NCBI RefSeq assembly: GCF_000336695.1
Contig: NZ_AOMC01000142.1
Location: 23,392 to 77,045 of the forward strand
DNA: 53,654 bases
Direction: 5' to 3'
Source of the DNA: Halococcus morrhuae DSM 1307
GTDB taxonomy: Archaea; Halobacteriota; Halobacteria; Halobacteriales; Halococcaceae
Below are positions 25,239 to 45,068 of the stretch, in pieces (within the stretch, counting starts at the first letter, position 1; each line of letters opens with the position of its first letter). The translations under genes were made by a program, and so were the position numbers. The notes beneath the pieces are model-generated. The model was given only the letters and a program-made list of their open reading frames with translations. It was not told the origin of the DNA and ran no database searches.

Positions 25239-26210
25239 TCAGAGTGCGGGTGGTTCGCCACCGAATTCCTCGATAAGCGCGGGAACGACATCGAAGAGAT
25301 CGTCGGCGACACCGTAGTCGGCGAGATCGTAGATGGGGGCGCTCGCGTCGGTGTTGATGGCGACGATGGTGTCGGCACCTTTCATGCCGGCGACGTGCTG
25401 AACGGCTCCCGAGATCCCGATGGCGATGTAGACGTCGGGCGTCACGACCTTCCCGCTCTGCCCCACCTGCCGATTTTTGGGCAGCCAGCCGTTGTCGACG
25501 ATCGGTCTCGATGAAGAGAGCGTCGCGCCGAGGGTATCGGCCAGCGCTTCGACGAGCGCGATGTTCTCCTCTTCCTCGATACCACGACCGACGGAGACGA
25601 GCACGTCAGCGTCAGTGATATCGACGTCACCGCCGCCGACCTCTTGGTAGCCCGTGACCGTCGAGCGGACGGCCGATTCGTCGATATCCACGTCGAACTG
25701 ACTGATTTCGGCATCACCAGTACCCTCGGCGGGTGGCCACTCGCCGGGACGGATCGTCAGCGCCACTCGATCGGCGTCGACCTCGACCACTGTCTCGACC
25801 TTCGAGCCGTACATCTCGCGGGTGACGGCCGGTTCGTCGCCGTACTCGACGTCGATGGCGTCGGTCACCAGCGGGAGCGACAGTGCGTTGGCAACGGCGG
25901 GCGCGTAGTCGAGTCCATTGACCGTGTTGGGCAGCACGAGCAGTTCGGGATCGATCTCGTCGGCGAGCGCTTCGACGGACTGGGTATAGATGTCGTGGTT
26001 GAACTCCTCGCCCTCGCTGACGGTGTGAACCATATCGACTCCCTCCCGATTGAGTTCGTCGGCAAACCCGTCGACATCGCCGCCGATGACGGCCACGTGG
26101 AGGTCGCCATCGGCGGCGTCGGCGAGTTCGCGCCCGGCAGTCACGAGTTCGAAGCTGACGTCACGAAGATCACCGCGGCGGTGTTCGGCGACGGCCAGAA
26201 TATCGCTCAT
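25239..26210 (-). CDS. etfA: Electron transfer flavoprotein alpha subunit
   Basis: The 323-residue protein shows the ETF alpha pattern: an N-terminal AAANH-like domain (LAVAEHRRGDLRDVSFELV), then the FAD-binding C-terminal domain with VSVGRGIEEEENIALVEALADTLGA, SRPIVDNGWLPKNRQVGQSGK and AIGISGAVQHVAGMKGADTIVAINTD. It carries electrons from acyl-CoA dehydrogenases to the membrane quinone pool. It overlaps the etfB stop by 4 nt. The two ACAD pairs downstream in the window are natural electron donors. An ETF:quinone oxidoreductase is not present here. Confidence 0.93.
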   Translation of the reverse strand: MSDILAVAEHRRGDLRDVSFELVTAGRELADAADGDLHVAVIGGDVDGFADELNREGVDMVHTVSEGEEFNHDIYTQSVEALADEIDPELLVLPNTVNGLDYAPAVANALSLPLVTDAIDVEYGDEPAVTREMYGSKVETVVEVDADRVALTIRPGEWPPAEGTGDAEISQFDVDIDESAVRSTVTGYQEVGGGDVDITDADVLVSVGRGIEEEENIALVEALADTLGATLSSSRPIVDNGWLPKNRQVGQSGKVVTPDVYIAIGISGAVQHVAGMKGADTIVAINTDASAPIYDLADYGVADDLFDVVPALIEEFGGEPPAL

Positions 26211-26998
26211 GCTTCGACCCCCTCGTCGCGGAGGAGGTCGGCGAGTTGGTCGGCCTCCTCGTCGGGGCTGCCCTCGAAGAGGGTGGCATCGCTTTCGGTC
26301 TCGGGCTCGTAGAGCTGCGTCAACGAGACGTCACTGTCGGTGACGCTGGCGTCGAGACCCAGCTCGTCGAGGGTTTTGGGGGCGATCTCCTTGGACTGGG
26401 CCTGCCGGATCCCACGTAGACTGGCGTAGCGCGGTTCGTTGATCCCCGTCTGGATCGTGAGCACGGCAGGGAGTTCGACGTCAGTGAACTCCTCGACGCC
26501 ACCTTCGAGTTCGCGATGAACCGACGCGGTCTCATTCCCCGGTTCGTATTCGAGATCGTTGACGACGGCGGCCCACTCGAAGCCGACTTCCTCGGCCAAG
26601 GCAACACCCGTCGCGCCGAAGGCGGTATCGTCCGATTGGACACCCGTGAGAACGAGATCGGGCTGTTCGTCCTCGACGACAGCTGCCAGAACGTCGGCTT
26701 TGGTCTCGCTGTCGAGGTACTCCGTTCCCTCCAGGTTCTCGTCCCAGACACGAATGGAACGGTCGACGCCCTTGGCGAGTGCCATCCGGATGGTCTCGTC
26801 GGCGCGCTCGGGCCCGATCGTCACCGAAACCACTTCGACGTCCTCGCCGGCTTCCTGGAGCTGGACGCCCGCCTCGACGGCGTAGTCGTCCCATTCATTG
26901 AGGTCGTAGTTCAGGTACTGCTCGTCGATGGCCAGCCCGTCGATTTCGAACTCGTCCTCGACGTCGGCCACCTCCGCCACTGCCACCAGAACCTTCAT
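26207..26998 (-). CDS. etfB: Electron transfer flavoprotein beta subunit
   Basis: The 263-residue protein has the ETF beta layout: MKVLVAVAEVADVEDEFEIDG at the start, LNEWDDYAVEAGVQLQEAG, then VLTGVQSDDTAFGATGVALAEEVGFEWA for AMP binding and a C-terminal arm (IRQAQSKEIAPKTLDELG) that wraps around EtfA. It is first in the etfBA operon. The upstream region is shared with the divergent IclR-family gene, about 218 nt, which makes that regulator a candidate controller. Confidence 0.93.
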   Translation of the reverse strand: MKVLVAVAEVADVEDEFEIDGLAIDEQYLNYDLNEWDDYAVEAGVQLQEAGEDVEVVSVTIGPERADETIRMALAKGVDRSIRVWDENLEGTEYLDSETKADVLAAVVEDEQPDLVLTGVQSDDTAFGATGVALAEEVGFEWAAVVNDLEYEPGNETASVHRELEGGVEEFTDVELPAVLTIQTGINEPRYASLRGIRQAQSKEIAPKTLDELGLDASVTDSDVSLTQLYEPETESDATLFEGSPDEEADQLADLLRDEGVEA

Positions 26999-27216: not shown

Positions 27217-27999
27217 ATGGATGCATCCGACACCGTGCCGATACAGTCGCTCAGGACCGCGAAGGACATCGTCGACTTCTTGGTCGAAAACGACGGCGCA
27301 GGCGTGACCGAGACCGCCGAACGGATCGACAGACCGCTGAGCACGACCCACGAATATCTCAATACGTTGACTGAAATCGGCTACCTCATCCGTGGCGACG
27401 ACGGCTACTACGTCAGCTCGCTCCATCTCTCGGTCGGCACGGAGGTACGGAGCCAGGACCCATTGTACGCGGCGGCGAAACCGGAGATCGACAAGTTCGC
27501 CGCCGAGACCGACAACAACATCGTCCTGTTGAAGGAGGAGAGCGGTTATGGCGTCACGCTCTACAGCGTCGAGAACGACGATTCGATGCGGATCCAGCCA
27601 CGGGCGGGCAACCGCAACTACCTCCACATCAACGCGGGCGGCAAGGCCATCCTGGCGAGTCTCCCGCACGAGCGAGTCGAGGCGATCGTCGAAAACGTTG
27701 GGCTCGACGCAGTCACCGAGAACACGATCACCGATCGGGAGACGCTGTTCGAGGAGCTCGAAACGATCCGAGAGGTCGGCTACGCCGTCTCGCGCGAGGA
27801 GGATATCGTCGGCATCCACGAGATCGCGATCCCGATCCTCGTCGAGGACGCCCGCAACATCGGCTCGATCCTCGTCTACGGCCCGGCGAGCGAGTTCACC
27901 GACGAACGCCTCACCGAAGAACTCCCCGAAGCGCTCCGCAGACTCAAGAACGTCCTGGAGTTCAATCTCACGTACGCACAGTACAGTACGACTCAGTGA
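27217..27999 (+). CDS. IclR-family transcriptional regulator
   Basis: The 260-residue protein has an N-terminal winged helix (about residues 8-65: IQSLRTAKDIVDFLVENDGAGVTETAERIDRPLSTTHEYLNTLTEIGYL) and a C-terminal IclR effector domain with YLHINAGGKAILASLPHERVEAIV and GIHEIAIPIL. An upstream GTG at 27193 is in frame, but ATG 27217 begins the conserved region. It is divergent from etfBA and upstream of an MBL-fold gene. In haloarchaea, IclR regulators often sit next to catabolic genes, so it may sense an acyl or aromatic intermediate of this island. Confidence 0.87.
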   Translation: MDASDTVPIQSLRTAKDIVDFLVENDGAGVTETAERIDRPLSTTHEYLNTLTEIGYLIRGDDGYYVSSLHLSVGTEVRSQDPLYAAAKPEIDKFAAETDNNIVLLKEESGYGVTLYSVENDDSMRIQPRAGNRNYLHINAGGKAILASLPHERVEAIVENVGLDAVTENTITDRETLFEELETIREVGYAVSREEDIVGIHEIAIPILVEDARNIGSILVYGPASEFTDERLTEELPEALRRLKNVLEFNLTYAQYSTTQ

Positions 28000-28108: not shown

Positions 28109-29077
28109 GTGACCAGCATCGATCGAATACGGCTGCCGACGCCCTTCGGCGTCGGGGACGTCAACTGTTACCTGCTACCGACGGCCGAACTCACCGTTAT
28201 CGATCCCGGGCCGGAGACGGCCGACGCTCGGGAGGCACTCCGCTCGGGTCTGAACGAGCGTGGCTACTCCGTCGAAGACGTTGCGAACGTCCTCATCACG
28301 CACCCGCACATGGACCACTTCGGCGGTGCACGGCGGCTCGCCGACGAGGCGGATGCGCGCGTCATCGCTCACGGGGACGCGGTCGAGCGCCTCGTGGCCC
28401 CGACCGGCCAGTTCGAGGACGAACAGGCGTTCTTCCACGGGTTTTTGCGCTCGATGGGGATGCCCGAAGACACCGTCGAAACGCTTCTCACGCTTCCCGA
28501 ATCGTACACGGATTTCCAGAGTCCGGTCACGCCGGATCGGACGGTCGCCGACGGCGAGCGACTCGATCTCGGCGTCGTCCTCGACTGCGTTCACACGCCG
28601 GGCCACGCCGTCGGTTCGGTCTGCTATCGGCTCCGGAGCGAGAACGCCGTCTTCACCGGCGATCACGTACTTCCGGACATCACGCCGAACCCGACGCTCA
28701 CGACGCTTCCCGGGAGAAGTGACGAGCGAACGCGAAGCCTCCCGACCTATCTCGCGTCGCTCGAAAAACTCCGCACGGTCGACGAGACGGTCGGCTACGG
28801 CGGTCATGGGGATCGACTGAGATCTCTCCAGAAACGTATCGACGAGACGATTGCCCACCATCACGAGCGAAAGGAACACATCGCGGGGATGATCCCTGAT
28901 TCGGAGCCGGGAACGACGGCCTATCGACTCATGAACGAGCTGTTTCCGGAACTGCCCGCAACGGAAGGGTTCGTCGGCATCTCCGAGATCGTCGGCCACC
29001 TCGATCTGCTGGACGACGAGGGCCGACTCGACTGGCACGAAACCGACGGCGTCAGGAAATGCGTGCTCGCCGGCTGA
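28109..29077 (+). CDS. MBL-fold metallohydrolase with C-terminal winged-helix-like domain
   Basis: The 322-residue protein has the metallo-beta-lactamase signature HPHMDHFGG (about residues 66-74), an early Asp in IDPGPE, a later HTPGHAVGSV and FTGDHVLP, giving a full set of di-metal ligands. Residues from about 245 (RKEHIAGMIPDSEPGTTAYRLMNELFPEL ... HLDLLDDEGRLDW) form the winged-helix-like tail seen in LACTB2 and similar hydrolases. It is probably a thioesterase or other ester hydrolase acting on CoA-linked or related substrates; this is inferred from the island. The start is GTG 28109. Confidence 0.83.
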   Translation: MTSIDRIRLPTPFGVGDVNCYLLPTAELTVIDPGPETADAREALRSGLNERGYSVEDVANVLITHPHMDHFGGARRLADEADARVIAHGDAVERLVAPTGQFEDEQAFFHGFLRSMGMPEDTVETLLTLPESYTDFQSPVTPDRTVADGERLDLGVVLDCVHTPGHAVGSVCYRLRSENAVFTGDHVLPDITPNPTLTTLPGRSDERTRSLPTYLASLEKLRTVDETVGYGGHGDRLRSLQKRIDETIAHHHERKEHIAGMIPDSEPGTTAYRLMNELFPELPATEGFVGISEIVGHLDLLDDEGRLDWHETDGVRKCVLAG

Positions 29078-29086
29078 GTAGCTGTT

Positions 29087-29512
29087 TCAGGACGGACGAA
29101 ACAGCGGGACCGTCGTATCTTCGTTGACGTCCTCCCAGACCACTTCGACCGGCATGCCGATCTCGACCGATTCGGGATCGATGTCGACGACCTGCGTGAT
29201 GAGACGGATGTCCTCGGTCCCATCGAGCAGGACGATGGAGACGTTGTAGGGGGTGTGATCCTCGTGGGCGGGGCTGGCGGCGTAGTGGGTCGTCGTGTAC
29301 GTGTAGATCTCGCCGGTGCCGGGAACGTCGGCCCAGTCGACCTCGTACGACCGGCAGTCGGGACAGACCGGCGTGGGTGGGTGTCTGAGCGCGCCACAGT
29401 CCGCACACTGCTGGACGACGAGCTCGTGTCGGTTACACGCCTCCCAGAACGGGGCGGTGTCGATCCCCTTCTCCGGGAGCGGGAAGATCTCCTCTCTGGT
29501 AGTACCTCTCAT
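29087..29512 (-). CDS. Zinc-ribbon OB-fold protein (DUF35), partner of the Ltp2-like aldolase
   Basis: The 141-residue protein has an N-terminal amphipathic helix (TAPFWEACNRHELVVQQC), a rubredoxin-like zinc ribbon with Cys36, Cys39, Cys50 and Cys53, and a C-terminal OB fold (GEIYTYTTTHYA ... RLITQVVDID). This matches the DUF35 part of ChsH2, which binds the Ltp2 aldolase in actinobacterial steroid side-chain degradation. Here the DUF35 module is a separate gene following the MaoC-like gene, rather than fused to it. It is last in the operon 31882 to 29087. Confidence 0.85.
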   Translation of the reverse strand: MRGTTREEIFPLPEKGIDTAPFWEACNRHELVVQQCADCGALRHPPTPVCPDCRSYEVDWADVPGTGEIYTYTTTHYAASPAHEDHTPYNVSIVLLDGTEDIRLITQVVDIDPESVEIGMPVEVVWEDVNEDTTVPLFRPS

Positions 29513-29617
29513 TGTCCTCGTCCTCTCCTTCCGGCCACCGTGGAATAAACGTTCCGTCCGTTCGTCCGCCCGTGGTTCGACGGCATCGATATCCGGCTAT
29601 CGTATCCCATCATCGGG

Positions 29618-30685
29618 CTATTTCACCCCGTCTCTGACGAGCGTGACCGACGACGGGCAGACGTCCCGGCCGTCGTTGTCCATCGTCACGCCGAGCTCGA
29701 TCCGACCCTCGTTCTCGTCGACGTCCGTGACCTCGGCTCCGACGGAGAGTTTGTCGCCGGCATAGGCCGTTCCCTGGATCGCGATCTCGCGTTCGGCGAT
29801 CCGCCACTCCGGGCCGGCCCACTGCACCGCCACCCGATCGGCCAACCCTTGAAGCGCCATCGTGTTGAGGAAGATCGTCTCGTTGCCCCGCGAACGGGTG
29901 TACTCGGGATCGTGGTGATGACCCGAGAAGTCCCGCGTCGCGGCCGCGTTGTGAACGACCTTCGTGTACGTGACGGGGAATTCGAACCCGTCGACCCCGT
30001 CACCCGGCGAAACCTCGTCGATGTCGATCGACGCGTACGGATCGTCGGGTCCCTGTCCATCCGGCACATCGACTGCACGACGACCCTCGGCGAAGGGCGT
30101 CTCGAACGATTCCGTACGTTCCTCCTCGTCGTCGGCGCTGTAGCGGAGCATCACGTTCGACTCCTCGGCAACGAGTTCGCCACCGCCGTCGCGATAGGTC
30201 GTCTTCTCGGTGACGAAGTTACCTGTCCCGACCCGCGTCTCCTTCTCCTCGCTCACGGATTCGATCGAGGTCTGCCAGTTCAGCTGCGTGCCGACCAGCA
30301 GCGGTCGATGGATCGTGGTCTTCGACTGCGTGTTGATGATGGTGTCCTTTCCGCCCGGCAACGGTACGTCCGTCACCGAGACGTCCTCGCCGTCGGCCCC
30401 CTCGGCATCCGGCCCGGGCGTCCACTCCGGATCCATCTTCCAGGTCCAGAACAGACCTGGCGGGCTCCGGATGGCTCCCCAGTGGTTCGCCGCGAAGCGC
30501 TCGTCCCAAAAGGAGGGGTTCGCGTCCTCGATCAGTTCGGCGTAGAACTGGATCATCGAGCGGTTGACCGGCTCGGCCGCGAAGAACGTGTCTCCCGATC
30601 GGCCGACCCACTCCTGTGCCTCCTCGAACGATCCCGTCGCTACGTCGATCGCCGTGACGTCGTCGTTGCTGTTGTCTGAACTCAT
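29618..30685 (-). CDS. MaoC-like double hot-dog acyl-CoA hydratase/dehydratase
   Basis: The 355-residue protein contains two hot-dog units. The first (about residues 25-190) is a FAS1-like dehydratase domain (RSMIQFYAELIEDANPSFWDERFA). The second (about 230-350) carries DFSGHHHDPEYTRSRG, with the Asp/His pair expected of an (R)-hydratase, followed by TIFLNTMALQGL. It would add water to an enoyl-CoA, making the 3-hydroxyacyl-CoA on which the adjacent aldolase could act. It starts 15 nt after the aldolase stop, and the DUF35 gene follows after 105 nt. ChsH1/ChsH2-type hydratase is the closest functional model. Confidence 0.82.
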   Translation of the reverse strand: MSSDNSNDDVTAIDVATGSFEEAQEWVGRSGDTFFAAEPVNRSMIQFYAELIEDANPSFWDERFAANHWGAIRSPPGLFWTWKMDPEWTPGPDAEGADGEDVSVTDVPLPGGKDTIINTQSKTTIHRPLLVGTQLNWQTSIESVSEEKETRVGTGNFVTEKTTYRDGGGELVAEESNVMLRYSADDEEERTESFETPFAEGRRAVDVPDGQGPDDPYASIDIDEVSPGDGVDGFEFPVTYTKVVHNAAATRDFSGHHHDPEYTRSRGNETIFLNTMALQGLADRVAVQWAGPEWRIAEREIAIQGTAYAGDKLSVGAEVTDVDENEGRIELGVTMDNDGRDVCPSSVTLVRDGVK

Positions 30686-30700
30686 GTTTGTGCTGTGTAA

Positions 30701-31882
30701 CTACGCGGGCGAGAGGATCAGCCCGCTGTGGGGGGTCACGCCGGGACCGCTGGCGACCAGGCTGTACTCGACGTCGTCGACCTGTGTCGGCGAAGTTCCT
30801 CTGACCTGTCGGGCAGCCTCGACGACCAGATTGAACCCGTGGATATACGCCTCCGAGAGGTTGCCGCCCGAGGTGTTGATCGGGAGATCGGCGTCGGGCC
30901 CGATGGCGTTGCCGTCGACGAACAGTTCGCCGGCCTCACCGCGGGGCGCGAAGCCGTAGTCCTCGGCGGTCATCAGCACCATCCCGGTGAAGTTCTCGTA
31001 CAACTGTGCGACGTCGATGTCGTCGGGCGTGAGCCCGGCGCTCTCGAACAGCCGATCGGCGACCCGCGCGGCGTTCGAGGTCGGATAGTCCTCAAGCGGC
31101 ATGTTGTGCGAAGAGAGGACGCCGCTGCCCCAACCAGGCCCACCGCCCTGCGCGGCCGACGTGATCTCGACGGCCGGCTGTGGCAGGTCGGCGGCGTTCT
31201 CGGCGGAGGTGACGAGCACGGCACAGGCCCCATCGCTCTCCAGACAGCAGTCGTAGAGCTTGTACGGGTCGGTGATGGGTGGCGAGTCCATGTACTCTTC
31301 CATCGTCATCTCGCGGTCGGACATCACGGCCCGCGGGTTGCGGTTCGCGTGGGCGCGCGAGGTGAGCGCGACGTGACCCAAATGCTCCTGTGGGACGTCG
31401 TACTCGTGCATGTAGCGCTGTGCGGGCAGCGCGTACATCTGCGGCGGCGTTTCGAGCCCCAGCGAGTGGGCGAATGCGTCGGTGCCCTCCGCGTAATCGA
31501 TCCCTTGGGTCTGGCCACGACGGCCGAACTGGCCCTGGCAGAGCGCGCGGTAGGCGACGACGTACTCCGCCGCGCCCGATTCGACGGCCATCGCGGCGTT
31601 CATCACCGCGGCGGAGCCGCCACAGCCACCGCCGCCCCAGACCTTGTTCGAGAACTTCACTTCAGGGATGCCGAGCGCGTCGGCGACGAGCGAGCCCTTG
31701 TTCCGGTCGTTCGCGTACGACGAGAAGCCGTCGACGTCCTCGATGTCGACGCCGGCGTCCCCGGCGGCGTTCTCGATCGCCTCACAGGCGAGTTCGAACT
31801 CGCTGCGGTCGGTCATCTCGCCCTGTTTCACGTATTCGGTCTCGCCGAGTCCGACGATACATGCGTCTGAATTCCACGGCAT
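30701..31882 (-). CDS. Thiolase-fold Ltp2-like (retro-)aldolase candidate
   Basis: The 393-residue protein belongs to the SCP-x/lipid-transfer thiolase group but lacks thiolase chemistry. The GHPxGA loop is replaced by NTSGGNLSEAYIHGF, and the HDxF motif by QLYENFTGM. Tyr295 and Tyr346 fall in these segments, closely matching the two catalytic tyrosines reported for Ltp2, which cleaves the CoA side chain of steroid intermediates by retro-aldol reaction. The KVWGGGGCGG segment sits where the thiolase nucleophile loop would be. It is first in an operon with MaoC-like and DUF35 genes, as Ltp2 is with ChsH1/ChsH2. Substrate is unknown. Confidence 0.82.
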   Translation of the reverse strand: MPWNSDACIVGLGETEYVKQGEMTDRSEFELACEAIENAAGDAGVDIEDVDGFSSYANDRNKGSLVADALGIPEVKFSNKVWGGGGCGGSAAVMNAAMAVESGAAEYVVAYRALCQGQFGRRGQTQGIDYAEGTDAFAHSLGLETPPQMYALPAQRYMHEYDVPQEHLGHVALTSRAHANRNPRAVMSDREMTMEEYMDSPPITDPYKLYDCCLESDGACAVLVTSAENAADLPQPAVEITSAAQGGGPGWGSGVLSSHNMPLEDYPTSNAARVADRLFESAGLTPDDIDVAQLYENFTGMVLMTAEDYGFAPRGEAGELFVDGNAIGPDADLPINTSGGNLSEAYIHGFNLVVEAARQVRGTSPTQVDDVEYSLVASGPGVTPHSGLILSPA

Positions 31883-31896
31883 ACCAACTCATCCAT

Positions 31897-31953
31897 GGTC
31901 CGAGTAATAAATCCCCCGGACGTGCCGGGAGCAGTAGGTTTAATACTCCGACC
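31897..31953. promoter_or_regulatory. Mirrored divergent promoters of the aldolase operon and the SDR gene
   Basis: GGTTTAATACTCCGACC (31937-31953, plus strand) and GATTTATTACTCGGACC (reverse strand of 31897-31913) agree at 14 of 17 positions. Each contains the TATA box about 25-30 nt before its start codon (31972 and 31882). The match extends downstream of the TATA box (TACTCSGACC), so both may be bound by one regulator. Confidence 0.55.
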
Positions 31954-31971
31954 TCGGAATTGCTGTTCGCA

Positions 31972-32748
31972 ATGGATCTCGGAATCAGCGACAAGACCGC
32001 CGTCGTCACCGGCGGCGGTGGCCGGATCGGCAGCGCCGACTGTGAGATACTCGCCGACGAAGGCGCGGACGTCTACTGTCTCGACGTCGACCTGGAGGGT
32101 GCCGAGTCGGTCGCGGCCGACCTCGACGACCTCGCCGGCAGCGTCGAACCGATCGAGTGCGATCTCACCGACCGCGATGGCGTCGCCTCGACGATCGAGG
32201 CGATCCGCGAGGAGAGCGGCGGCGTCGACATCCTCGTCAACAACGCGGCGGCGGTCGACGCACGCTCGAAGCTCGAAAACTACGACGACGATCTCTGGGA
32301 CCGCGACGTGGCGGTCAACCTCACCGGGACGTACAACGTCACCCGCGAGGTGTTCCCCGCGATGTGCGAGCGTGGCTGGGGTCGGGTCGTGAACATGACG
32401 TCGATCGCGGGCTGGCTCGGCGGGTTCGGCCAGGCCTCTTACTCGGCGACGAAATCCGCGCTCATCGGCTTCGGCAAGACGCTCGCGCTCGAAGGCGCAC
32501 AGTCGGGCGTCACCGCGAACATCGTCGCGCCGAGCCTCGCGGCGAGCGAGCTCGCCGATCTGGAGCTGGAGGAGATCGAGGCGATGGACGAGCACATGCA
32601 CCGGATCGTGGAGATGATCCCGATGCGGCGGGCCGGCCGCGAGGAAGACGTCGCGAACCTCATCGCCTACCTGTCGAGCGAGCAGGCGAACTACGTCACC
32701 GGCCAGCTCGTCGGTGTCACCGGCGGTGCGGATCTGTTCGCGTTCTAA
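31972..32748 (+). CDS. Short-chain dehydrogenase/reductase, probable 3-hydroxyacyl-CoA dehydrogenase
   Basis: The 258-residue SDR has the cofactor motif TGGGGRIGSA (about residues 14-23), DVDLEG at the end of strand 2 (NAD preference suggested by the Asp), NNAA, the catalytic Ser in NMTSIAG, and YSATK (Tyr-x3-Lys). The C terminus ends GQLVGVTGGADLFAF. It is complete. Given the divergent aldolase operon with a matching promoter, oxidation of a 3-hydroxyacyl-CoA in the same pathway is the likely role. A FabG-like reductase direction is possible. Confidence 0.85.
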   Translation: MDLGISDKTAVVTGGGGRIGSADCEILADEGADVYCLDVDLEGAESVAADLDDLAGSVEPIECDLTDRDGVASTIEAIREESGGVDILVNNAAAVDARSKLENYDDDLWDRDVAVNLTGTYNVTREVFPAMCERGWGRVVNMTSIAGWLGGFGQASYSATKSALIGFGKTLALEGAQSGVTANIVAPSLAASELADLELEEIEAMDEHMHRIVEMIPMRRAGREEDVANLIAYLSSEQANYVTGQLVGVTGGADLFAF

Positions 32749-33521: not shown

Positions 33522-34679
33522 ATGAACGATCCTGTTATCGTCGACTGCGTCAGAACGCCGTTCGGGGCTGACGGGGGCGTGTTCCGCGACACGCACCCCC
33601 AAGACCTCGCGGCCGCACCGCTGCGCGCGCTCGAAGAACGGGTCGGGTTCGATCCCGCGTCCACTGTCGACGACGCCGCGATCGGCTGTGTCACCGCCAT
33701 CGACAAGCAGGGGAGCAACATCGGCCGGCACGCGACGATGGTCGCCGGCTGGGGCGACGCGGTCCCGGGCTTCCAGCTCAACCGGATGTGCGGTTCGGGC
33801 CAGACGACACTCAATCTCGCCGCCGCGAGCGTGAAGTCGGGCTATCGAGACGTGATGATCGCCGGCGGCGTCGAGCACATGACCGACCACGCCATCGGAG
33901 ACGACGCGGGCGAACGTAGCGAGACCTACCACGAGCAGTTCCCGGTCGGCAGCCAGACCAACCAGTTCCAGGGAGCCGAACTCATCGCCGATCGCTGGGA
34001 CATCACCCGCGAGGACGTCGATTCGATCGCCCTCGACTCACAACGCCGCTGGAAGGAGGCCTGGGATGCCGGCCACTACGACAGTCAGGTGACGCCCGTC
34101 GAGACCGAACTCGATGGCGAGGACATTACTGTGGAGGTCGACGAACACCCCCGGCCGGAGACGGACAGGGAGACGCTCTCGAACCTGCCGGTAATCGCGC
34201 GGGAGGAGGGCGACGGCGTCATCCACGCGGGCAACTCCTCGGGCGTCGTCGACGGCTCGGCAGCGCTACTGGTCGCGGACCCCGACGTCGCCGACGATCG
34301 CGGCTGGGATCCGATGGCCCGCATCGTCGACACGCACATCGTCGGGGTTTCGCCCGAGACGATCCTCACTGGTCCCTTACCGGCGACCAACGAGATCCTC
34401 GCGGCGAACGACATGACCGGGGCCGATATCGACCTGTTCGAGTGCAACGAGGCGTTCGCGTCGGTCGTCGCGGCGTGGCTCCAGGACACCGACGCCGAGT
34501 GGGATCGAACCAACGTCTGGGGCGGCGCGATCGCCCACGGCCACCCGCTCGGCGCGACCGGCAGCATGCTCGTGACGAAACTCGCCCACCAGCTCCAAGA
34601 GACCGGCCAGCGCTACGGGCTCTCGACGATGTGTATCGGGCTCGGCATGGGCGTCGCCACCATCATCGAGCGCGTGTAG
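33522..34679 (+). CDS. Acetyl-CoA C-acyltransferase (classical Cys-type thiolase)
   Basis: The 385-residue thiolase keeps the classical catalytic set: Cys90 (NRMCGSG), the His in GHPLGATG and the second Cys in STMCIGLGMG, with NEAF in between. It removes acetyl-CoA (or propionyl-CoA) from 3-ketoacyl-CoA, the last step of beta-oxidation. This contrasts with the Ser-type thiolase at 7525 and the Ltp2-like protein at 30701. ATG 33522 begins the conserved NDPVIVDCVRTPFG. It converges with the ACAD operon that ends at 34786. Confidence 0.92.
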   Translation: MNDPVIVDCVRTPFGADGGVFRDTHPQDLAAAPLRALEERVGFDPASTVDDAAIGCVTAIDKQGSNIGRHATMVAGWGDAVPGFQLNRMCGSGQTTLNLAAASVKSGYRDVMIAGGVEHMTDHAIGDDAGERSETYHEQFPVGSQTNQFQGAELIADRWDITREDVDSIALDSQRRWKEAWDAGHYDSQVTPVETELDGEDITVEVDEHPRPETDRETLSNLPVIAREEGDGVIHAGNSSGVVDGSAALLVADPDVADDRGWDPMARIVDTHIVGVSPETILTGPLPATNEILAANDMTGADIDLFECNEAFASVVAAWLQDTDAEWDRTNVWGGAIAHGHPLGATGSMLVTKLAHQLQETGQRYGLSTMCIGLGMGVATIIERV

Positions 34680-34785: not shown

Positions 34786-35907
34786 CTACAGCCGGATGTC
34801 GGCGATCCGTCGGCGGTGTTCCGTCGGCGAGCCAAGGAGGTTCGCCCAGGTCTTCGCCTGTTTGAGGAAGATGTGGCCGTCGTGATCCCACGTGTAGCCC
34901 GTCGCGCCGTGGTTGAAGATATCGTCCTCGAAGAGCTCGCCACAGCGCTCGGTGCAGTACCAGGTCGCCCTTGAAACGGCCTGGCGTGCGTCGTCCTCGT
35001 CGTTCGCGATCGCCCACGCCGCGTAGTAGGTGAGCGATCGCGCGGCCTCCGTGTCGAGCCACATATCGGCGATGCGGTGTTTGACCGCCTGGAACTGCCC
35101 GATCGGTTTGTCGAACTGTTCGCGCTGCTTGCCGTACTCGACCGAGCGGTCGACCGCCTCGTCGGCCCCGCCGACGAGCATCGCACACATCGAGACGTTG
35201 AGGCGGTCGATGGCGCGCTTGAGCGCGTCCCCGCCGCCGTCAACCGGGCCGAGCCGCGCGCCGGAAACCTCGACCGCGTCGAAGGTCAGTTCGTACAGCG
35301 GTCGAGTCTTGTCGAGCGTGTCGAGCTGCTCTGCCTCCGCCGCCGCGGGATCGACGAAGAACAGCGTGATGCCATCGTAACCGGTGTCCTGGCGGGTTCG
35401 GGCGGGCACGACCACCCGATCGACGCTTTCGGCGTAGGGCACGAGCGTTTTCGTCCCGTCGAGACGATAGCCGTCGTCCGTGGGTTCGGCCTCCATCCGG
35501 ATGGCCCCGGGGAGCGATTCGGTGGCGTCGTCGTAGAGCGCGACGCTCGCACGGAGATCGCCGTCGGCGATCGCCGGCAGGAACTGCTCTTTCTGTTCGT
35601 CGGTACCGAGTTCCGCGAGCAACGGAACGGTGAACCCGAGCGTCTCGGGCAGCGGTCCCGGGAGCGCGACCCGGCCGGCCTCCTCGAACAGCAGCGAGAG
35701 GTAGAGCAGATCGTCACCCAGGCCACCGTATTCGAGCGGGACGCTCAGTGCCGGATAGTCCATCTCGGCGAGACCGTCCCAGACCTCGTCGACGACGTCC
35801 TCGCCGTCCATCTGTCGGCGGGCGAGCTCGATGCCGCCTTCCGATTCGAGGTAGTCGCGCACCGATTCCTGCATCTGATTCTGTTCGTCCGAGAGCGTGA
35901 AATCCAT
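34786..35907 (-). CDS. Acyl-CoA dehydrogenase, smaller subunit of a heteromeric pair
   Basis: The 373-residue ACAD has an N-terminal helical domain (MDFTLSDEQNQMQESVRDYLE), a middle beta domain with YRLDGTKTLVPYAESVDRVVV, and a C-terminal domain with REQFDKPIGQFQAVKHRIADMW and the family's closing segment GATGYTWDHDGHIFLKQAK. It starts 3 nt after the stop of the larger ACAD gene. Paired, diverged ACAD genes of this kind form alpha2beta2 enzymes in steroid degradation (ChsE1/ChsE2). The protein is a close paralogue of the one at 42945. Confidence 0.88.
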   Translation of the reverse strand: MDFTLSDEQNQMQESVRDYLESEGGIELARRQMDGEDVVDEVWDGLAEMDYPALSVPLEYGGLGDDLLYLSLLFEEAGRVALPGPLPETLGFTVPLLAELGTDEQKEQFLPAIADGDLRASVALYDDATESLPGAIRMEAEPTDDGYRLDGTKTLVPYAESVDRVVVPARTRQDTGYDGITLFFVDPAAAEAEQLDTLDKTRPLYELTFDAVEVSGARLGPVDGGGDALKRAIDRLNVSMCAMLVGGADEAVDRSVEYGKQREQFDKPIGQFQAVKHRIADMWLDTEAARSLTYYAAWAIANDEDDARQAVSRATWYCTERCGELFEDDIFNHGATGYTWDHDGHIFLKQAKTWANLLGSPTEHRRRIADIRL

Positions 35908-35910
35908 CGT

Positions 35911-37092
35911 TTACTCCTGATCTCCCTTCGGCAGCCCGAGCACTCGTTCGCCGATGATGTTGCGCTGGATGTCCGACGTCCCACCGCCGATCCGGATCGA
36001 GATGTTCGCGAGCGAGTCCTTCGCCGCCCCGTTCGGCGAGTCGTCGCCCCAGAGCGCGGCTTTCGGCCCGCCGAGTTTCACTCTGAACCGGTGGAGATCG
36101 GCGGCGACCTCGCTGTCGTACAGTTTGCCGAACGAGGCCTCGGCACCGAGATCGCCGTTCATCTGCTTGCTCACGTTGCGGAAGTAGGTCAGCTTCGCCG
36201 CCTGAATCCGGGTGTCGAACTCGGCGAGTTTCTCGCGGATGTGTGGGTCCTCCACCAGCGGTGTGCCGCCGCGCGTCTCGTTCTTGCAGAACTCGACGAG
36301 CTCGTCGAAGCGCCGTTCGAGATCGAGCGACTGCGAGAGCGAGATCCGCTCGAAGGAGAGCTGTCGCATGGCGACCTCCCAGCCCTCGTCGACTTCGTTG
36401 AGGACGTTCTCCTTCGGGGTCGTCGCGTCGTCGAAGTAGACCTGATTGAACTCGCGCTCGTCGGTGATCTGGCGGATGCGCTCGTTCGTCACACCCTCTT
36501 GGTCCATGTCGACGATGAGAGCGGTGATGCCGTGGTGTTTCGGCCCGGAATCGTCCGTCCGGGTGAACATGTAACACCAGTCGGCCTTGTGGGCGTGCGT
36601 CGTCCAGATCTTCTGGCCGTTGATGCGGAACTGGTCGCCCTCGTCGACCGCCTTGCACTGGAGACTCGCGAGGTCGGAGCCGACGTCCGGTTCGGAGTAG
36701 CCGATACACCAGAGCTCCTCACCGTTCAGGATCTTCGGCAGGAAGCGTTCCTTCTGTTCTTCGGTGCCGAACCCCTCGATCGCCGGGCCGACGAGGTCGA
36801 CGCCGATCTCGCTGCGCTCGGGCGGCGGGTTCACACGGGCCTTCTCCTGTTGGTAGATCAACTGCTGCATCAGGCTCGCATCACGACCGCCGTACTCCTC
36901 GGGCCAGTGGATCGCCGCCCAGCCACCCTCGTGGAGTTTCCGCTGCCACTCCCGGAGGAACTGTTCGCGTTCGTCCTCGTCGTCCGGCAGGTCGCGATCG
37001 CCCTCGATCCAGCCGTCGGGGAGGTTCTCTTCGTACCACTCCCGGATCTCGCGGCGGAACGCCTCCTGCTCGTCAGTATAGTCGAAGTTCAT
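35911..37092 (-). CDS. Acyl-CoA dehydrogenase, larger subunit of a heteromeric pair
   Basis: The 393-residue ACAD has WPEEYGGRDAS, the substrate/FAD segment CIGYSEPDVGSDLASL, INGQKIWTTHAHKADW, and a C-terminal end GGGTSDIQRNIIGERVLGLPK, which matches the classical FAD-binding end of the family. FADH2 electrons would go to EtfAB. The ORF can be extended to 37365, but that would run through a polypurine/polypyrimidine tract and the promoter; ATG 37092 begins the conserved MNFDYTDEQE. It is first in the two-gene operon and divergent from the acyl-CoA ligase. Confidence 0.9.
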   Translation of the reverse strand: MNFDYTDEQEAFRREIREWYEENLPDGWIEGDRDLPDDEDEREQFLREWQRKLHEGGWAAIHWPEEYGGRDASLMQQLIYQQEKARVNPPPERSEIGVDLVGPAIEGFGTEEQKERFLPKILNGEELWCIGYSEPDVGSDLASLQCKAVDEGDQFRINGQKIWTTHAHKADWCYMFTRTDDSGPKHHGITALIVDMDQEGVTNERIRQITDEREFNQVYFDDATTPKENVLNEVDEGWEVAMRQLSFERISLSQSLDLERRFDELVEFCKNETRGGTPLVEDPHIREKLAEFDTRIQAAKLTYFRNVSKQMNGDLGAEASFGKLYDSEVAADLHRFRVKLGGPKAALWGDDSPNGAAKDSLANISIRIGGGTSDIQRNIIGERVLGLPKGDQE

Positions 37093-37178: not shown

Positions 37179-37263
37179 TCTCCTCCCCCCCCCCTCTCCC
37201 CTCCTTCTCTTTCCTCCCTTTTCCTCGCCTTCTCCCCCTTCCTTCGTCCCTTTCCGCTCCCCC
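37179..37263. repeat. Polypyrimidine tract, 85 nt with three purines
   Basis: The first 48 nt (37179-37226) are pyrimidines without a break, including C10 at 37185-37194. The whole 85 nt has only three G (37227, 37246, 37256). It lies between the divergent ACAD operon and acyl-CoA ligase gene. Such tracts can form triplex or other non-B DNA under negative supercoiling. Confidence 0.9.
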
Positions 37264-37316
37264 ACAATCGCCGGCCGCGGAAAACGATAACAATCTATGG
37301 GAAAGAACTAAGACAT

Positions 37317-38999: not shown

Positions 39000-39202
39000 G
39001 CCAGGTCGTTCTCGTCGTCTCCGTACGATCACCTGCCGTTTGGATGTGCTGGCGTCGTCAGTATTGATGGCGCTCGCAACGATATCGTCATTCGAAGCTG
39101 TGCGTCCGAACCAGTCGCTGCCTAGTTTAGTGTCGATCGAAACCACGGATCATGATAACAGTAGGCATAAACTATATACGTAGCGGGCTGAATCGATAGG
39201 TG

Positions 39203-40663
39203 ATGCCCGAGGCTAGCTTCGAGATCCCCGACCAGAAAATCGGTCTCACCGGCGCAACGGCGCTCGCAATCGGCAATGCGATCGCAGCAACGACGTTCAT
39301 CGTCCCTGCCGAACTCCTGGCGACCGGAGTTGGTCCGAGCATGGCGCTGGCTGCCCTCCTGGTGGTGATTCCGACGGTGGTGCTGTTCGTGTTCATGCTC
39401 CAGCTCGGCGGTGCGATGCCGACGTCCGGCGGCGGCTACGTGTACAACTCCGTACTCTTGAGCCCGTTCTGGGGGTTCGCCAGACCGTGGGTTTCGCTGC
39501 CGGCGATCTGGTTCGGGTTGCCGTTCACTGCGCAGGCGTTCGCCCAGTATCTCCGCTTTTATCTCCCACTCGACGTGACGCTGGGATCGACGATCGCGTT
39601 CACGATCCCGACCGTTTCGACGGAACTGCTCGTCGGGGGTCTGATCTTCGCGTTCATGATCATCAACATCCTCGGCATTCGGGCGACGGCGCTGATCCAG
39701 TACGGACTGGTCACGATCATCATCGTCGCCTCGGCGCTGTTCGTCGGCGTTGGACTGTTCCACATCAGTCCCGGGAACTTCACGCCGGTGTTTCCGGGTG
39801 AAGCGATCGATCCCTTCGTCGCGGCCGTGATCACGCTGTTCCTCGGGATGACGGGGTTCAGTCTTCCCCTGCAACTCGGTGAGGAAATCGAGAATCCGAT
39901 ACGGAACATTCCCCGATCGATCGCGCTCAGTACGGTTATCGGAATGACGCTTCTCACGGGGCTCATCGTCGTGGCCATCGGCGTCGTTCACTGGACCGAA
40001 TGGGCGGGTGCCGAGGCGGGTATCGCGGTCGTCGCCCGGGAGTTCCTCCCGTGGTGGGGCGTGTTCCTGATCGTGGCCGCGGCGATAGTCGGCGGTCTCA
40101 CGACGGTGAACGCAGTGTTCGTGAACGTCTCCCGGATCGTCATGCGGGCGGCTCGCGACGGCGTCATCCCCAATCAGCTCGCGCACATCAACGAGCGCTG
40201 GGGGAGCCCGGATGCCGCCATTCTCGCGATGGGCATCCCGGCACTCGTCATCGTCCCGTTCGCGCCGGGGTTGCTCGAACTCGCGTTCGTGCTCTCGCTG
40301 TCCTTTCTGATGGACATGGTCTTTCTCGCGCTCGGGGCGCTCCAGCTCACCCGTCGCTTCCCCGAGCGCTACGAGAAGTCCACCTACCGCGTTCCCAAAG
40401 CGCTGCTCTACCCGCTGGTGGCCATCGGCGTCGTCATCCCCGTCGGTCTGTGGATCCTGCTGGGACTCGGGGAAGGTTCGGGGCTTATCATCGCGACCGC
40501 GGTTCCCGTCTGGCTCGGGGTGGGATACGCCGTCTATCGCTATCGTGTGTGGCGCTACGCACAACGCGGCATCGACCTCCCCGAGCGGATGCGCCACCTC
40601 CACGAACACGAAGCCGAGATGGCATCCGACTTCGACGGTACCGCCACGGCCGACGACGACTGA
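39203..40663 (+). CDS. APC-family amino acid/organocation permease
   Basis: The 486-residue membrane protein has about 12 transmembrane helices with the APC opening GLTGATALAIGNAIAATTFIVPAELLA and TSGGGYVYNSVLLSPFWGF. The cytosolic tail is acidic. A TATA box AACTATATACG (about 39169-39179) precedes ATG 39203 by 25-30 nt. The reading frame continues in frame for 43 coding-like codons after its TGA (see 40664-40795), so the annotated C terminus may be a recent truncation. Substrate is unknown. Confidence 0.87.
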   Translation: MPEASFEIPDQKIGLTGATALAIGNAIAATTFIVPAELLATGVGPSMALAALLVVIPTVVLFVFMLQLGGAMPTSGGGYVYNSVLLSPFWGFARPWVSLPAIWFGLPFTAQAFAQYLRFYLPLDVTLGSTIAFTIPTVSTELLVGGLIFAFMIINILGIRATALIQYGLVTIIIVASALFVGVGLFHISPGNFTPVFPGEAIDPFVAAVITLFLGMTGFSLPLQLGEEIENPIRNIPRSIALSTVIGMTLLTGLIVVAIGVVHWTEWAGAEAGIAVVAREFLPWWGVFLIVAAAIVGGLTTVNAVFVNVSRIVMRAARDGVIPNQLAHINERWGSPDAAILAMGIPALVIVPFAPGLLELAFVLSLSFLMDMVFLALGALQLTRRFPERYEKSTYRVPKALLYPLVAIGVVIPVGLWILLGLGEGSGLIIATAVPVWLGVGYAVYRYRVWRYAQRGIDLPERMRHLHEHEAEMASDFDGTATADDD

Positions 40664-41764: not shown

Positions 41765-42943
41765 ATGGATTTCGAGTACACCGAGGACCAAGAACGGTTC
41801 CGGCAGGAGCTCCGCGAGTGGCTCCGCGAGAACCTGCCGGACGGGTGGCAAGCGGGTGAACGCCCGGGAACGGACGATCCCGAAGAGAACGTCGAGTTCC
41901 TGCTGGACTGGCAGCGGACGCTCAACGACGGTGGCTGGGCGGGGCTCCACTGGCCCGAGGAGTACGGGGGTGCGGACGCCTCGCTGCTTGAACAGGTCAT
42001 CTACAATCAGGAGACGGCGCGCGTCGACGCGCCGGCACGCATCAACGCCGTCGGCATCGACTTCGTCGGCCCGACGCTGATGGAGCTCGGCACCGACGAG
42101 CAGAAAGAGCGGTTCCTGCCGAAGATCATCAGCGGCGAGGAACTCTGGTGTCAGGGCTACTCGGAGCCGGATGCCGGTTCCGATCTCGCGAGTCTCTCGC
42201 TGTCGGCCGAACGGAACGGTGACGAGTTCCTGCTCAACGGGCAGAAGGTCTGGACGAGCTACGCGCACGTCGCCGACTGGTGTTTCTTGCTGACCCGGAC
42301 GGACGATTCCGGCCCGAAACACCACGGCATCACCGTCTTCCTGGTCGATATGGACCAGGAGGGCATCCAGACCGAGCCGATCCACCAGATCACCGACGAG
42401 ACGGATTTCAACGAGGTGTTCTTCGACGACGCCGTGGCGCGCGAAGAGCACATCGTCGGCGAGATCGACGAGGGCTGGGAGGTCGCGATGACGCTCTCGG
42501 CGTTCGAGCACAGCATGTCGGACGTGTTCTCGATCGAACAGCGCTGGCGCTCGCTCGTCGAGTTCTGTCAGGAGCACGAACGCGACGGCACACCGCTCGC
42601 CGAGCACACCCACGTGCGCCGGGAACTCGCCCGGCTCCACACTCGCATTCAGGCGGGCAAGCTCACCCACTACCGGAACGTGAGCAAGCAGATGGAGACC
42701 GGTGTGCCCGGTCCGGAGGGGTCGATGGACAAGGTGTTCAACAACCAGACCGAGAAGAAGTTGGAGAACTTCGCGCGGCGGTTGCTCGGGGCGAACAACG
42801 CTCTCTGGACCGACGGACCGGACGACGGCCAGTGGGTGACGGACCTGCTGATGCCCTACGGGAAGATGATCGCCGGCGGGACGAAGGACGTCCAGCGAAA
42901 CATCATCGCCGAGCGCGTGCTCGGGCTGCCGAAGGACGACTGA
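41765..42943 (+). CDS. Acyl-CoA dehydrogenase, larger subunit of the second pair
   Basis: The 392-residue ACAD is a paralogue of the protein at 35911, sharing HWPEEYGGADASL, GYSEPDAGSDLASL, RTDDSGPKHHGIT and GGTKDVQRNIIAERVLGLPK. The full ACAD domain order is present. A TATA-like GGTATATG box (about 41721) lies some 40 nt upstream of ATG 41765. It is followed by the smaller subunit after 1 nt. Presence of two complete pairs suggests successive oxidation of two different acyl-CoA substrates. Confidence 0.9.
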   Translation: MDFEYTEDQERFRQELREWLRENLPDGWQAGERPGTDDPEENVEFLLDWQRTLNDGGWAGLHWPEEYGGADASLLEQVIYNQETARVDAPARINAVGIDFVGPTLMELGTDEQKERFLPKIISGEELWCQGYSEPDAGSDLASLSLSAERNGDEFLLNGQKVWTSYAHVADWCFLLTRTDDSGPKHHGITVFLVDMDQEGIQTEPIHQITDETDFNEVFFDDAVAREEHIVGEIDEGWEVAMTLSAFEHSMSDVFSIEQRWRSLVEFCQEHERDGTPLAEHTHVRRELARLHTRIQAGKLTHYRNVSKQMETGVPGPEGSMDKVFNNQTEKKLENFARRLLGANNALWTDGPDDGQWVTDLLMPYGKMIAGGTKDVQRNIIAERVLGLPKDD

Positions 42944-42944
42944 T

Positions 42945-44072
42945 ATGGACTTCAGAATCAACGACGAACAACGACAGATGCGCGAGACGGCACAGGAGTT
43001 CTTCGAGGATCGGGAAGTCCTCGAACGCGCGCGGGAACGGATCGACGGTGAGGACGTCGTCGACGACCTCTGGGACGATCTGTCCGAGATGGACTACCCG
43101 GCGCTGACGGTGCCGCTCGAACACGGTGGACTGGGCGACGACGTGCTCTACCTCTCGCTGTTGCTCGAAGAGGCCGGCCGGGTCGCGCTGCCAGCCCCGC
43201 TGCCCGAGACGCTCGCGTTCGGCGCGTTCGTGCTCGACGAACTCGGATCGGATGCACAGAAGGAGCAGTTCCTGCCGGCGATCGCCGATGGTGACCAACG
43301 GTTGAGCTTCGCGCTCTACGAGTCCGGTCAGGAGTCGCTGCCGCGCGACATCCAGCTCGCCGCCACACCGACCGACGACGGCTATCGCCTCGACGGGACG
43401 AAGACCCTCGTGCCGTTCGGCGAGCAGGTCGATACGATCGTCGTCGCCGCGCGGACGGGCTCCGGCACCGGGATGGACGGCGTGAGCCTGTTTCTGGTGG
43501 ATGCCGAGCGCGTCGACAGCGAACCGCAGGACACCCTCGATCGGACGCGCCCGGCGGCGAAACTCCACTTCGACGACTTCGAGATCGGCGAGAACGCGCT
43601 GCTCGGGACTGAAGGCGAAGCCGGGCCGACCCTCCAGAAAGCGATGGATCGTTACACCGTCGCCACCTGTGCGATGACCGTCGGCGCAGCGAGCCGCGCC
43701 GTGGAGATGTCGTCCGACTACGGCAGCCAGCGCGAGCAGTTCGACAAACCGATCGGACAGTTCCAGGCGGTCAAACACCGCATCGCCGATATGTGGATGG
43801 CCACGCAGGCCGCGCGATCGCTCACCTACTACGCGGCGTGGGCGCTCGAAAACGACGAGCCGGATGCCGCACGTGCGGTCTCGGAGGCCAAACTGTTCTG
43901 TTCGGAGCAGCTCACGCAGGTCTTCGCCGACGACATCCACAACCACGGCGGGATGGGCTTTACCTCGGAACACGACGGTCACATCTACTTCAAGCAGGCG
44001 AAGGCGTGGGAGACGTTCCTCGGCACGCCGACCGAGCATCTCGACCGGATCGCCGACAGCCACGAACTGTAG
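42945..44072 (+). CDS. Acyl-CoA dehydrogenase, smaller subunit of the second pair
   Basis: The 375-residue protein parallels the one at 34786 (MDFRINDEQRQMRETAQEFFED; REQFDKPIGQFQAVKHRIADMW; HGGMGFTSEHDGHIYFKQAK). It starts 1 nt after the larger subunit, keeping the same large-then-small order as the first pair. It would form an alpha2beta2 enzyme with its partner and pass electrons to ETF. Confidence 0.88.
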   Translation: MDFRINDEQRQMRETAQEFFEDREVLERARERIDGEDVVDDLWDDLSEMDYPALTVPLEHGGLGDDVLYLSLLLEEAGRVALPAPLPETLAFGAFVLDELGSDAQKEQFLPAIADGDQRLSFALYESGQESLPRDIQLAATPTDDGYRLDGTKTLVPFGEQVDTIVVAARTGSGTGMDGVSLFLVDAERVDSEPQDTLDRTRPAAKLHFDDFEIGENALLGTEGEAGPTLQKAMDRYTVATCAMTVGAASRAVEMSSDYGSQREQFDKPIGQFQAVKHRIADMWMATQAARSLTYYAAWALENDEPDAARAVSEAKLFCSEQLTQVFADDIHNHGGMGFTSEHDGHIYFKQAKAWETFLGTPTEHLDRIADSHEL

Positions 44073-44149: not shown

Positions 44150-45068
44150 TCACTCGGTCGCCGCGGGGAACGGTTCGCCGCCCATCACCGTCCCCCAGAC
44201 CGGGACGTCCCTGAGCGCCGCCGGATCGACGGCGGTCGGATCGTCTTCGAGCACGGCGAAGTCGGCCCGCTTGCCGGCCTCGATGGTGCCGACCTCGTCG
44301 TCCATCCCGAGCAAGTAGGCGGCGTCGACAGTGATGGTTCTGAGTGCTTCGTCGACCGAGATGCGCTCGTCCTCGCCGAGCACGCGATCGCTGGCGGTGA
44401 CGCGGTTGACGGCGCTCCAGGCCGTGTGTAGCGGCGCAAGCGGCGTGACCGGCGCGTCCGAGTGGACACTGAAGGGGACGCCGGCGCGCTTGGCGCTCGC
44501 GCAGGCGTTCATCCGCTCGGCGCGCTCCGGGCCGACTGTCACCTCGTAGTGTTGGTCGCCGTAGTAGTAGAGGTGATTGCTGAAGAGGTTGACACAGAGG
44601 CCGAGCGCCGCCATCCGGCGGTACTGGTCGGCCGTGGCCAGCTGGCAGTGCTGGACGGTGTGACGGTGATCGAACCGCGGCGACTCGCGTTGGAGCAGCT
44701 CAACGGCGTCGACGAACAGCCCGCTGGCCTCGTCGCCGTTGCAGTGACAGTCGATCGAGCACGTCGGCGACGCTCCGACAGCCCGGCCAGTGCGTCCCGT
44801 CCGGGCTGTCGCGGCCGTAGTAGCCGAGGTAGGGGTACGACCAGAGCGCGCCGGCCATCGAGTGGGCGTGGGCCTCGACGAAGCCCGGCAGCAACACGTG
44901 GTCCGCGAAGCGCTCGTCGATCGTGGCGTTCCCCCAGCCCTCGAGCTCCGCGACGCTGCCGACGCCGAGCACGCGACCGTCGCGGACGGCGACGGCGCTC
45001 GCTTCCGGTCGGCTCGGATTCATCGTGACGATTCGATCGGCGACGTAGATCGTGGTTTCTTCGGACAT
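44150..45068 (-). pseudogene. YtcJ-like amidohydrolase, internally deleted and frameshifted
   Basis: The N-terminal part (45068 to about 44750) reads a typical start, MSEETTIYVADRIVTMNPSR, and the metal-binding GFVEAHAHS. The C-terminal part (about 44755 to 44150, other frame) has IDCHCNGDEASGLFVDAVELL, HRHTVQHCQL, SDAPVTPLAPL and GTIEAGKRADFAVLEDDP. Full-length relatives are about 540 residues; here only about 305 codons remain. Roughly 230 codons between DVLDRL and IDCHCNGD are missing, and the join is out of frame. It is therefore a pseudogene. It would have hydrolysed an amide substrate, perhaps one imported by the APC permease upstream (10 nt away). Confidence 0.87.

Follow-up and report, generated by a model that had tools for sequence, protein, structure and literature searches.

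So far, the retro-aldol removal of side chains from acyl-coenzyme A (acyl-CoA) compounds is understood in detail only for steroid-degrading bacteria. The aldolase Ltp2 of Thermomonospora curvata (TcLtp2) has a thiolase fold without the thiolase cysteine and histidines, is paired with the DUF35 part of ChsH2 (PDB: 6ok1), and uses Tyr294 as the base and Tyr344 as the acid (PMC12329534, the 2025 paper on the aldolase Sal, from which the Ltp2 catalytic residue numbers were taken). The hydratase ChsH1–ChsH2MaoC of Mycobacterium tuberculosis (PDB: 4w78, 4wnb) consists of an inert MaoC unit and an active one, with the catalytic Asp/His pair in ChsH1. The bile-acid aldolase Sal–Shy(DUF35) of Comamonas testosteroni (PDB: 9myr) is likewise a thiolase-fold retro-aldolase with a DUF35 partner, and contains a Tyr302/Cys304 dyad and a glutamine in place of the second tyrosine. 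The genes for a two-subunit dehydrogenase, hydratase, DUF35 part, and aldolase stand together in the ChsE1-E2-H1-H2-Ltp2 operon (igr; ORF40-44 in Comamonas). Here we analyse a 53,654-nucleotide stretch of Halococcus morrhuae DSM 1307 (contig NZ_AOMC01000142.1, positions 23,392 to 77,045), referred to as the window, in which three neighbouring genes encode an Ltp2-like aldolase of 393 residues, a double hot-dog MaoC hydratase of 355 residues, and a DUF35 protein of 141 residues. We put the probability at roughly three in four (0.76) that their products form a hydratase–aldolase complex that would work like ChsH1–ChsH2–Ltp2 in a side-chain-degrading pathway. A first-pass annotation of the window had proposed this reading, and the coordinates, gene types, and residue numbers that it gave for the three genes were all correct when re-read from the sequence. 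All computational tests run support the retro-aldol reading, the activity being a prediction from sequence.

The best solved relative of the 393-residue protein is TcLtp2 (6ok1_A, E-value 1.8e-80, about 44% identity), followed by 4u4e (1e-46). The AlphaFold model of the aldolase has a predicted local distance difference test score (pLDDT) of 84 and a predicted template modelling score of 0.88, and a Foldseek search with this model returned 6ok1 first (E-value 4e-41, template modelling score 0.89; next match 7e-32). An alignment of 105 sequences places Tyr295 and Tyr346 precisely at Tyr294 and Tyr344 of TcLtp2, as the first-pass annotation had claimed. Compared with three SCP-x-type thiolases from the same genome, Tyr295 takes the position of the histidine of the HDxF motif and Tyr346 that of the histidine of the GHP loop; both motifs had been reported missing and are indeed replaced, by YENF and EAYIHG, and the column of the thiolase nucleophilic cysteine holds Gly86. 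Residues E344, Y346, H348, and G349 are invariant among 28 diverse homologues, and Y295 is present in at least 90% of them. Confidence in the model is lowest at residues 121–131 and 249–267; the first of these segments lies close to the loop 118–127, whose disorder in TcLtp2 has been linked to a pocket open to bulky substrates (PMC12329534). The EAYIHG motif is shared with TcLtp2, and a ChsH2-type DUF35 gene, which encodes a candidate partner, is located in the same strand block. The Halococcus aldolase differs from TcLtp2 in having YENF instead of YDHF, a separate DUF35 gene, a position outside the steroid clade, and an archaeal host. It shares with Sal the first tyrosine, but has Asn297 and Tyr346 in place of the Sal cysteine and glutamine, and is therefore not of the Sal type.

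In a maximum-likelihood tree of 43 rows, one side of the root is made up of the HDxF thiolases (100/99), among them those SCP-x thiolases from the same genome in which HDxF and GHP are retained, and the aldolases with both tyrosines (Tyr/Tyr aldolases) form a well-supported clade (100/100) that contains the Halococcus protein. The steroid Ltp2s (YDHF, about 60–72% identical to TcLtp2) are one clade within the Tyr/Tyr aldolases (100/99). The Halococcus aldolases belong to another subclade, nested among Chloroflexi, betaproteobacterial, and alphaproteobacterial sequences (97/91, 95/86). The approximately unbiased (AU) test rejects grouping of the protein with the HDxF thiolases (p 2.5e-71), the placement named beforehand in the first-pass annotation as speaking against its reading, and also rejects joining it to the steroid Ltp2 clade (p 4e-53). 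A single archaeal lineage of all haloarchaeal relatives, Halococcus together with Natrialbaceae, is rejected as well (p 9e-13). The protein has no cysteine nucleophile, has tyrosines at both histidine positions, and lies in the Tyr/Tyr clade, which together place it in the broad aldolase class. The tree and AU tests, together with a score below the cut-off of the Ltp2 family model given further on, thus identify it as an aldolase of the Ltp2 mechanism class and not an Ltp2 orthologue; the label "Ltp2-like" is right for the mechanism class and wrong if taken to mean orthology.

The N-terminal half of the hydratase matches ChsH2 (E-value 4e-9) and the C-terminal half matches ChsH1 (2e-10), and the DUF35 protein, which contains a zinc ribbon and an OB fold, matches the DUF35 domain of ChsH2 (2.7e-31), so the parts are those recognised at the outset. 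The C-terminal half contains the Asp/His dyad D252/H257, which is invariant in ten haloarchaeal homologues, and the N-terminal half has Phe59 at the catalytic histidine position, as read from the alignment; ChsH2 has a tyrosine there (PMC11321319). The half-by-half matches and the presence of the dyad in the C-terminal half only indicate that the hydratase is a fusion of an inert ChsH2MaoC-like unit and an active ChsH1-like unit. Compared with the mycobacterial hydratase, the units are joined in one chain with the inert one first, lack an attached DUF35 domain, and have low sequence identity. A structure model of the hydratase was set aside (pLDDT 39, ten-row alignment). A fused hydratase in the reverse order (ChsH1-like, then ChsH2-like) is encoded beside an Ltp2 at a Pseudofrankia locus (L052, 11600–12667). 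The DUF35 gene is separate, as first noted, but this is not peculiar to Halococcus: a DUF35 match lies within 600 bp and on the same strand beside 61 of 71 Tyr/Tyr genes, and several of the other ten are in loci with short flanks. We therefore rejected the separate gene as a special trait, since it is the usual layout in the bacterial relatives. The MaoC and DUF35 parts of the Comamonas protein keep both activities when expressed separately (PMC12502768), so an unfused DUF35 protein is no obstacle to a ChsH2-like role.

The aldolase and hydratase genes are separated by 15 bases and the hydratase and DUF35 genes by 105 bases. In three Halococcus genomes, none of the three genes is disrupted and each evolves under purifying selection. 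The ratio of nonsynonymous to synonymous divergence is 0.025–0.035 in the aldolase gene, compared with about 0.1 in the hydratase and DUF35 genes. The aldolase was found in three of ten Halococcus genomes and in no other genome among 392 Halobacteria (E-value 1e-60), the closest named relative being that of Halococcus thailandensis JCM 13552 (99%). The haloarchaeal synteny search suggested with the original reading found the three genes, and the cluster around them, collinear in the three carriers; two further Halococcus genomes lack the cluster next to mutS. Synonymous divergence (dS) among the three carriers is 0.14–0.31 for the genes from the IclR regulator to the second dehydrogenase pair and 0.24 for the neighbouring mutS, which indicates vertical inheritance of these genes, along with the rest of the genome, within the species concerned. 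It is higher, 0.45–0.54, for EtfAB. The simplest reading is that the cluster was gained from bacteria before the carrier Halococcus species split.

The cluster extends far beyond the three genes, from about 25.2 to 44.1 kb of the window (Table 1). Each of the two acyl-CoA dehydrogenase pairs consists of unlike adjacent subunits that match the partner chains of two-subunit alpha2beta2 steroid enzymes, and may form such an enzyme. A literature search returned nothing on Tcur3481 and Tcur3483. The cluster shares with the igr and ORF40-44 operons the co-occurrence of a two-subunit dehydrogenase, hydratase, DUF35 protein, and aldolase, but has several transcription directions and an additional dehydrogenase pair, thiolase, SDR dehydrogenase, ligase, and EtfAB, and family searches of the Halococcus genome (2.99 Mb, 167 contigs, about 95% complete) found no ring-degradation markers. 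In the divergent promoter region, which is 95–98% identical in the two sister genomes, TATA-like sequences are located on the minus strand (TTTATTA, 31911–31905) and the plus strand (TTTAATA, 31939–31945), each 23–29 bp from a start codon, which suggests that the transcripts are leaderless. Scans for sigma-70 promoters and terminators gave nothing above shuffled sequences, as expected for an archaeal host.

Table 1. Features of the H. morrhuae cluster, in window coordinates
Feature	Coordinates	Strand	Basis or remark
Electron transfer flavoprotein alpha subunit (EtfA)	25239..26210	-	family match
Electron transfer flavoprotein beta subunit (EtfB)	26207..26998	-	family match
IclR-family regulator, candidate cluster regulator	27217..27999	+	family match
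MBL-fold hydrolase	28109..29077	+	convergent with DUF35 gene; likewise near several bacterial and Natrialbaceae relatives
Stand-alone DUF35 gene (zinc ribbon and OB fold), 141 aa, ChsH2 DUF35 type	29087..29512	-	sequence match
Double hot-dog MaoC hydratase gene, 355 aa	29618..30685	-	matches to ChsH2/ChsH1 halves
Ltp2-like Tyr/Tyr aldolase gene, 393 aa	30701..31882	-	sequence matches, motif alignment, tree
Divergent promoter region, aldolase/SDR	31883..31971		89 bases
SDR dehydrogenase, 258 aa, candidate 3-hydroxyacyl-CoA dehydrogenase	31972..32748	+	
Classical thiolase (Thiolase_N/C), candidate 3-ketoacyl-CoA thiolase	33522..34679	+	
Acyl-CoA dehydrogenase beta-type subunit, pair 1	34786..35907	-	best solved match Tcur3481
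Acyl-CoA dehydrogenase alpha-type subunit, pair 1	35911..37092	-	best solved matches 4x28_A, Tcur3483
AMP-forming acyl-CoA ligase, 551 aa	37344..38999	+	
Crotonase-type enoyl-CoA hydratase, 266 aa	40796..41596	-	top NCBIfam model EchA19, below cut-off
Acyl-CoA dehydrogenase alpha-type subunit, pair 2	41765..42943	+	best solved matches Tcur3483, 4x28_A
Acyl-CoA dehydrogenase beta-type subunit, pair 2	42945..44072	+	Tcur3481 second-best solved match

Several further features lie in or near the cluster. On the minus strand at 28234–28318, inside the MBL gene, ARAGORN reports a tRNA-Ala (anticodon cgc), which is probably a false call. A long C/T-rich polypyrimidine stretch at about 37180–37270, between dehydrogenase pair 1 and the ligase, is present in this genome only and not in its two sisters, and an APC-family permease gene (39200–40663) is missing from the otherwise collinear clusters of the same two genomes. 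An amidohydrolase-like gene in two short pieces (44150–45068), with like pieces in both sisters, is probably decayed. Elsewhere in the window (7525–9074), a separate SCP-x-type thiolase gene (L004), with HDMF and GHP motifs and a serine instead of a cysteine in the nucleophile column, is followed by a DUF35-like OB gene.

The gene content suffices for one full round of beta-oxidation followed by dehydrogenation, hydration, and retro-aldol cleavage. From the gene identities, the positions of the catalytic residues, the phylogeny, the selection on the genes, and the conservation of the cluster, we infer complex formation, the reaction, and the following order of steps. A carboxylic acid would be activated by the CoA ligase, and its acyl-CoA would be shortened in one conventional beta-oxidation round by dehydrogenase pair 2, the enoyl-CoA hydratase, the SDR dehydrogenase, and the thiolase. 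Dehydrogenase pair 1 would then introduce a 2,3 double bond, to which the fused MaoC protein would add water, with the C-terminal half catalytic and the inert N-terminal half leaving room for a bulky group. The expected product is a 3-hydroxyacyl-CoA whose oxidation to the 3-ketone is impossible or does not take place. The aldolase would cut its C2–C3 bond, with the DUF35 protein shaping the cleft: Tyr295 would take the proton from the 3-hydroxyl and Tyr346 would protonate the enolate thioester. Acetyl- or propionyl-CoA would be released together with a ketone or an aldehyde, and electrons from the dehydrogenases would pass to EtfAB.

The thiolase fold of the 393-residue protein, and its lower-scoring matches to archaeal and bacterial DUF35-linked thiolases (6esq, BbsAB), could be taken to mean that it works as a DUF35-linked thiolase. 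However, the nucleophilic cysteine, HDxF, and GHP are missing, the SCP-x thiolases of the same genome form a separate clade, and the cluster already contains a classical thiolase; with tyrosines at both histidine positions and Gly86 in the cysteine column, thiolase chemistry is very unlikely. Some observations count against the hydratase–aldolase reading itself. In the YENF motif, Asn297 replaces the oxyanion-hole histidine (His296) of the Ltp2 motif YDHF. The aldolase scores 397.6 bits against the Ltp2 model NF005892 of NCBIfam, below the curated cut-off of 469, compared with 705 bits for TcLtp2 and 700 bits for the protein from locus L081. Finally, the neighbourhoods of the nearest bacterial relatives (L008–L014) show no common substrate.

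A bulky cyclic or isoprenoid acid is the most likely substrate of the proposed complex, given that both dehydrogenase pairs resemble alpha2beta2 steroid enzymes and that one half of the hydratase pocket is inert. It is improbable that the cluster serves genuine steroid or bile-acid degradation, with removal of the side chain and breakdown of the ring. Its gene content does parallel the C5-to-C3-to-C0 side-chain route of actinobacteria and proteobacteria, its dehydrogenase pairs are closest to the solved Thermomonospora and Mycobacterium enzymes, and one of its carriers is H. thailandensis, a species isolated from fermented fish, where bile and cholesterol occur. However, the aldolase lies outside the steroid YDHF clade, a family search of the H. 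morrhuae genome (about 95% complete) did not find the KshA C-terminal domain, and the best score for an HsaC-type dioxygenase in the three Halococcus genomes was about 23 bits, compared with 309–329 in two bacterial genomes. KstD was not found either, the full-length FAD_binding_2 proteins being SdhA, NadB, and GlpB, and a survey of more than 8,000 genomes reported no archaeal aerobic steroid degraders (PMC4810484). Breakdown of the ring by the aerobic steroid (9,10-seco) route is thus unlikely; the organism may remove the side chain only, or use another cyclic or isoprenoid acid. A variant that differs from the hydratase–aldolase reading in substrate only, and which we regard as possible but rather doubtful, is cleavage of simpler branched or cycloalkyl 3-hydroxyacyl-CoAs, derived from 3-methyl-branched isoprenoid or cycloalkyl-acetic acids, in which a tertiary alcohol would block beta-oxidation and cleavage would give a ketone and acetyl-CoA. 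The chemical logic is the same, most bacterial Tyr/Tyr relatives are not steroid Ltp2s, and methylmalonyl-CoA mutase-like and acetone-carboxylase-like genes (identified by eye from their sequences) lie near the aldolase of the related locus L008. Reviews of hydrocarbon degradation reportedly name Halococcus. The inert hydratase half and the alpha2beta2-type dehydrogenases nevertheless favour a bulky substrate, and a literature search found no paper on a gene for a cyclohexylacetyl-CoA lyase.

A second haloarchaeal cluster occurs in four genomes (L174–L177), apparently of the family Natrialbaceae, and contains genes for an MBL-fold protein, a ligase, an Ltp-like protein beside DUF35, and a MaoC protein in varying order, with IclR and acyl-CoA dehydrogenase genes in three of the four. 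An LLM-type oxidoreductase gene is also present. The gene kinds are the same as in Halococcus, but the Natrialbaceae aldolase-like protein has YDSF and SYCHPGHFG motifs, keeps the first tyrosine, lacks the second, and belongs to a different clade by the AU test above; it is possibly a second retro-aldolase or an SLP-like type. Among bacterial loci (L017–L080), a large proteobacterial aldolase clade combines YDCF with EAYIHG, that is, the Sal-type cysteine with the Ltp2-type second tyrosine, and has the conserved gene order crotonase–aldolase–DUF35.

A literature search found no work on steroid side chains in haloarchaea. We tentatively suggest that the Halococcus cluster may be a complete archaeal pathway, bacterial in origin and refitted, that would remove a side chain of the C5 type from a bulky cyclic acid (terpenoid or steroid-like) through a single beta-oxidation round and a retro-aldol cut, with the ring released as a ketone; it would be the first archaeal case and would define a new substrate branch within the Tyr/Tyr aldolases. 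A conserved, selected, and laterally acquired haloarchaeal version would show that the chemistry extends beyond steroids and operates at high salinity. Most of the large Tyr/Tyr class lies outside the steroid Ltp2 clade, so that many bacterial genes now labelled lipid-transfer protein or acetyl-CoA acetyltransferase would be easier to annotate once one such member is characterised. The cluster provides concrete candidates for the ketone-forming breakdown of cyclic and branched acids in hypersaline settings.

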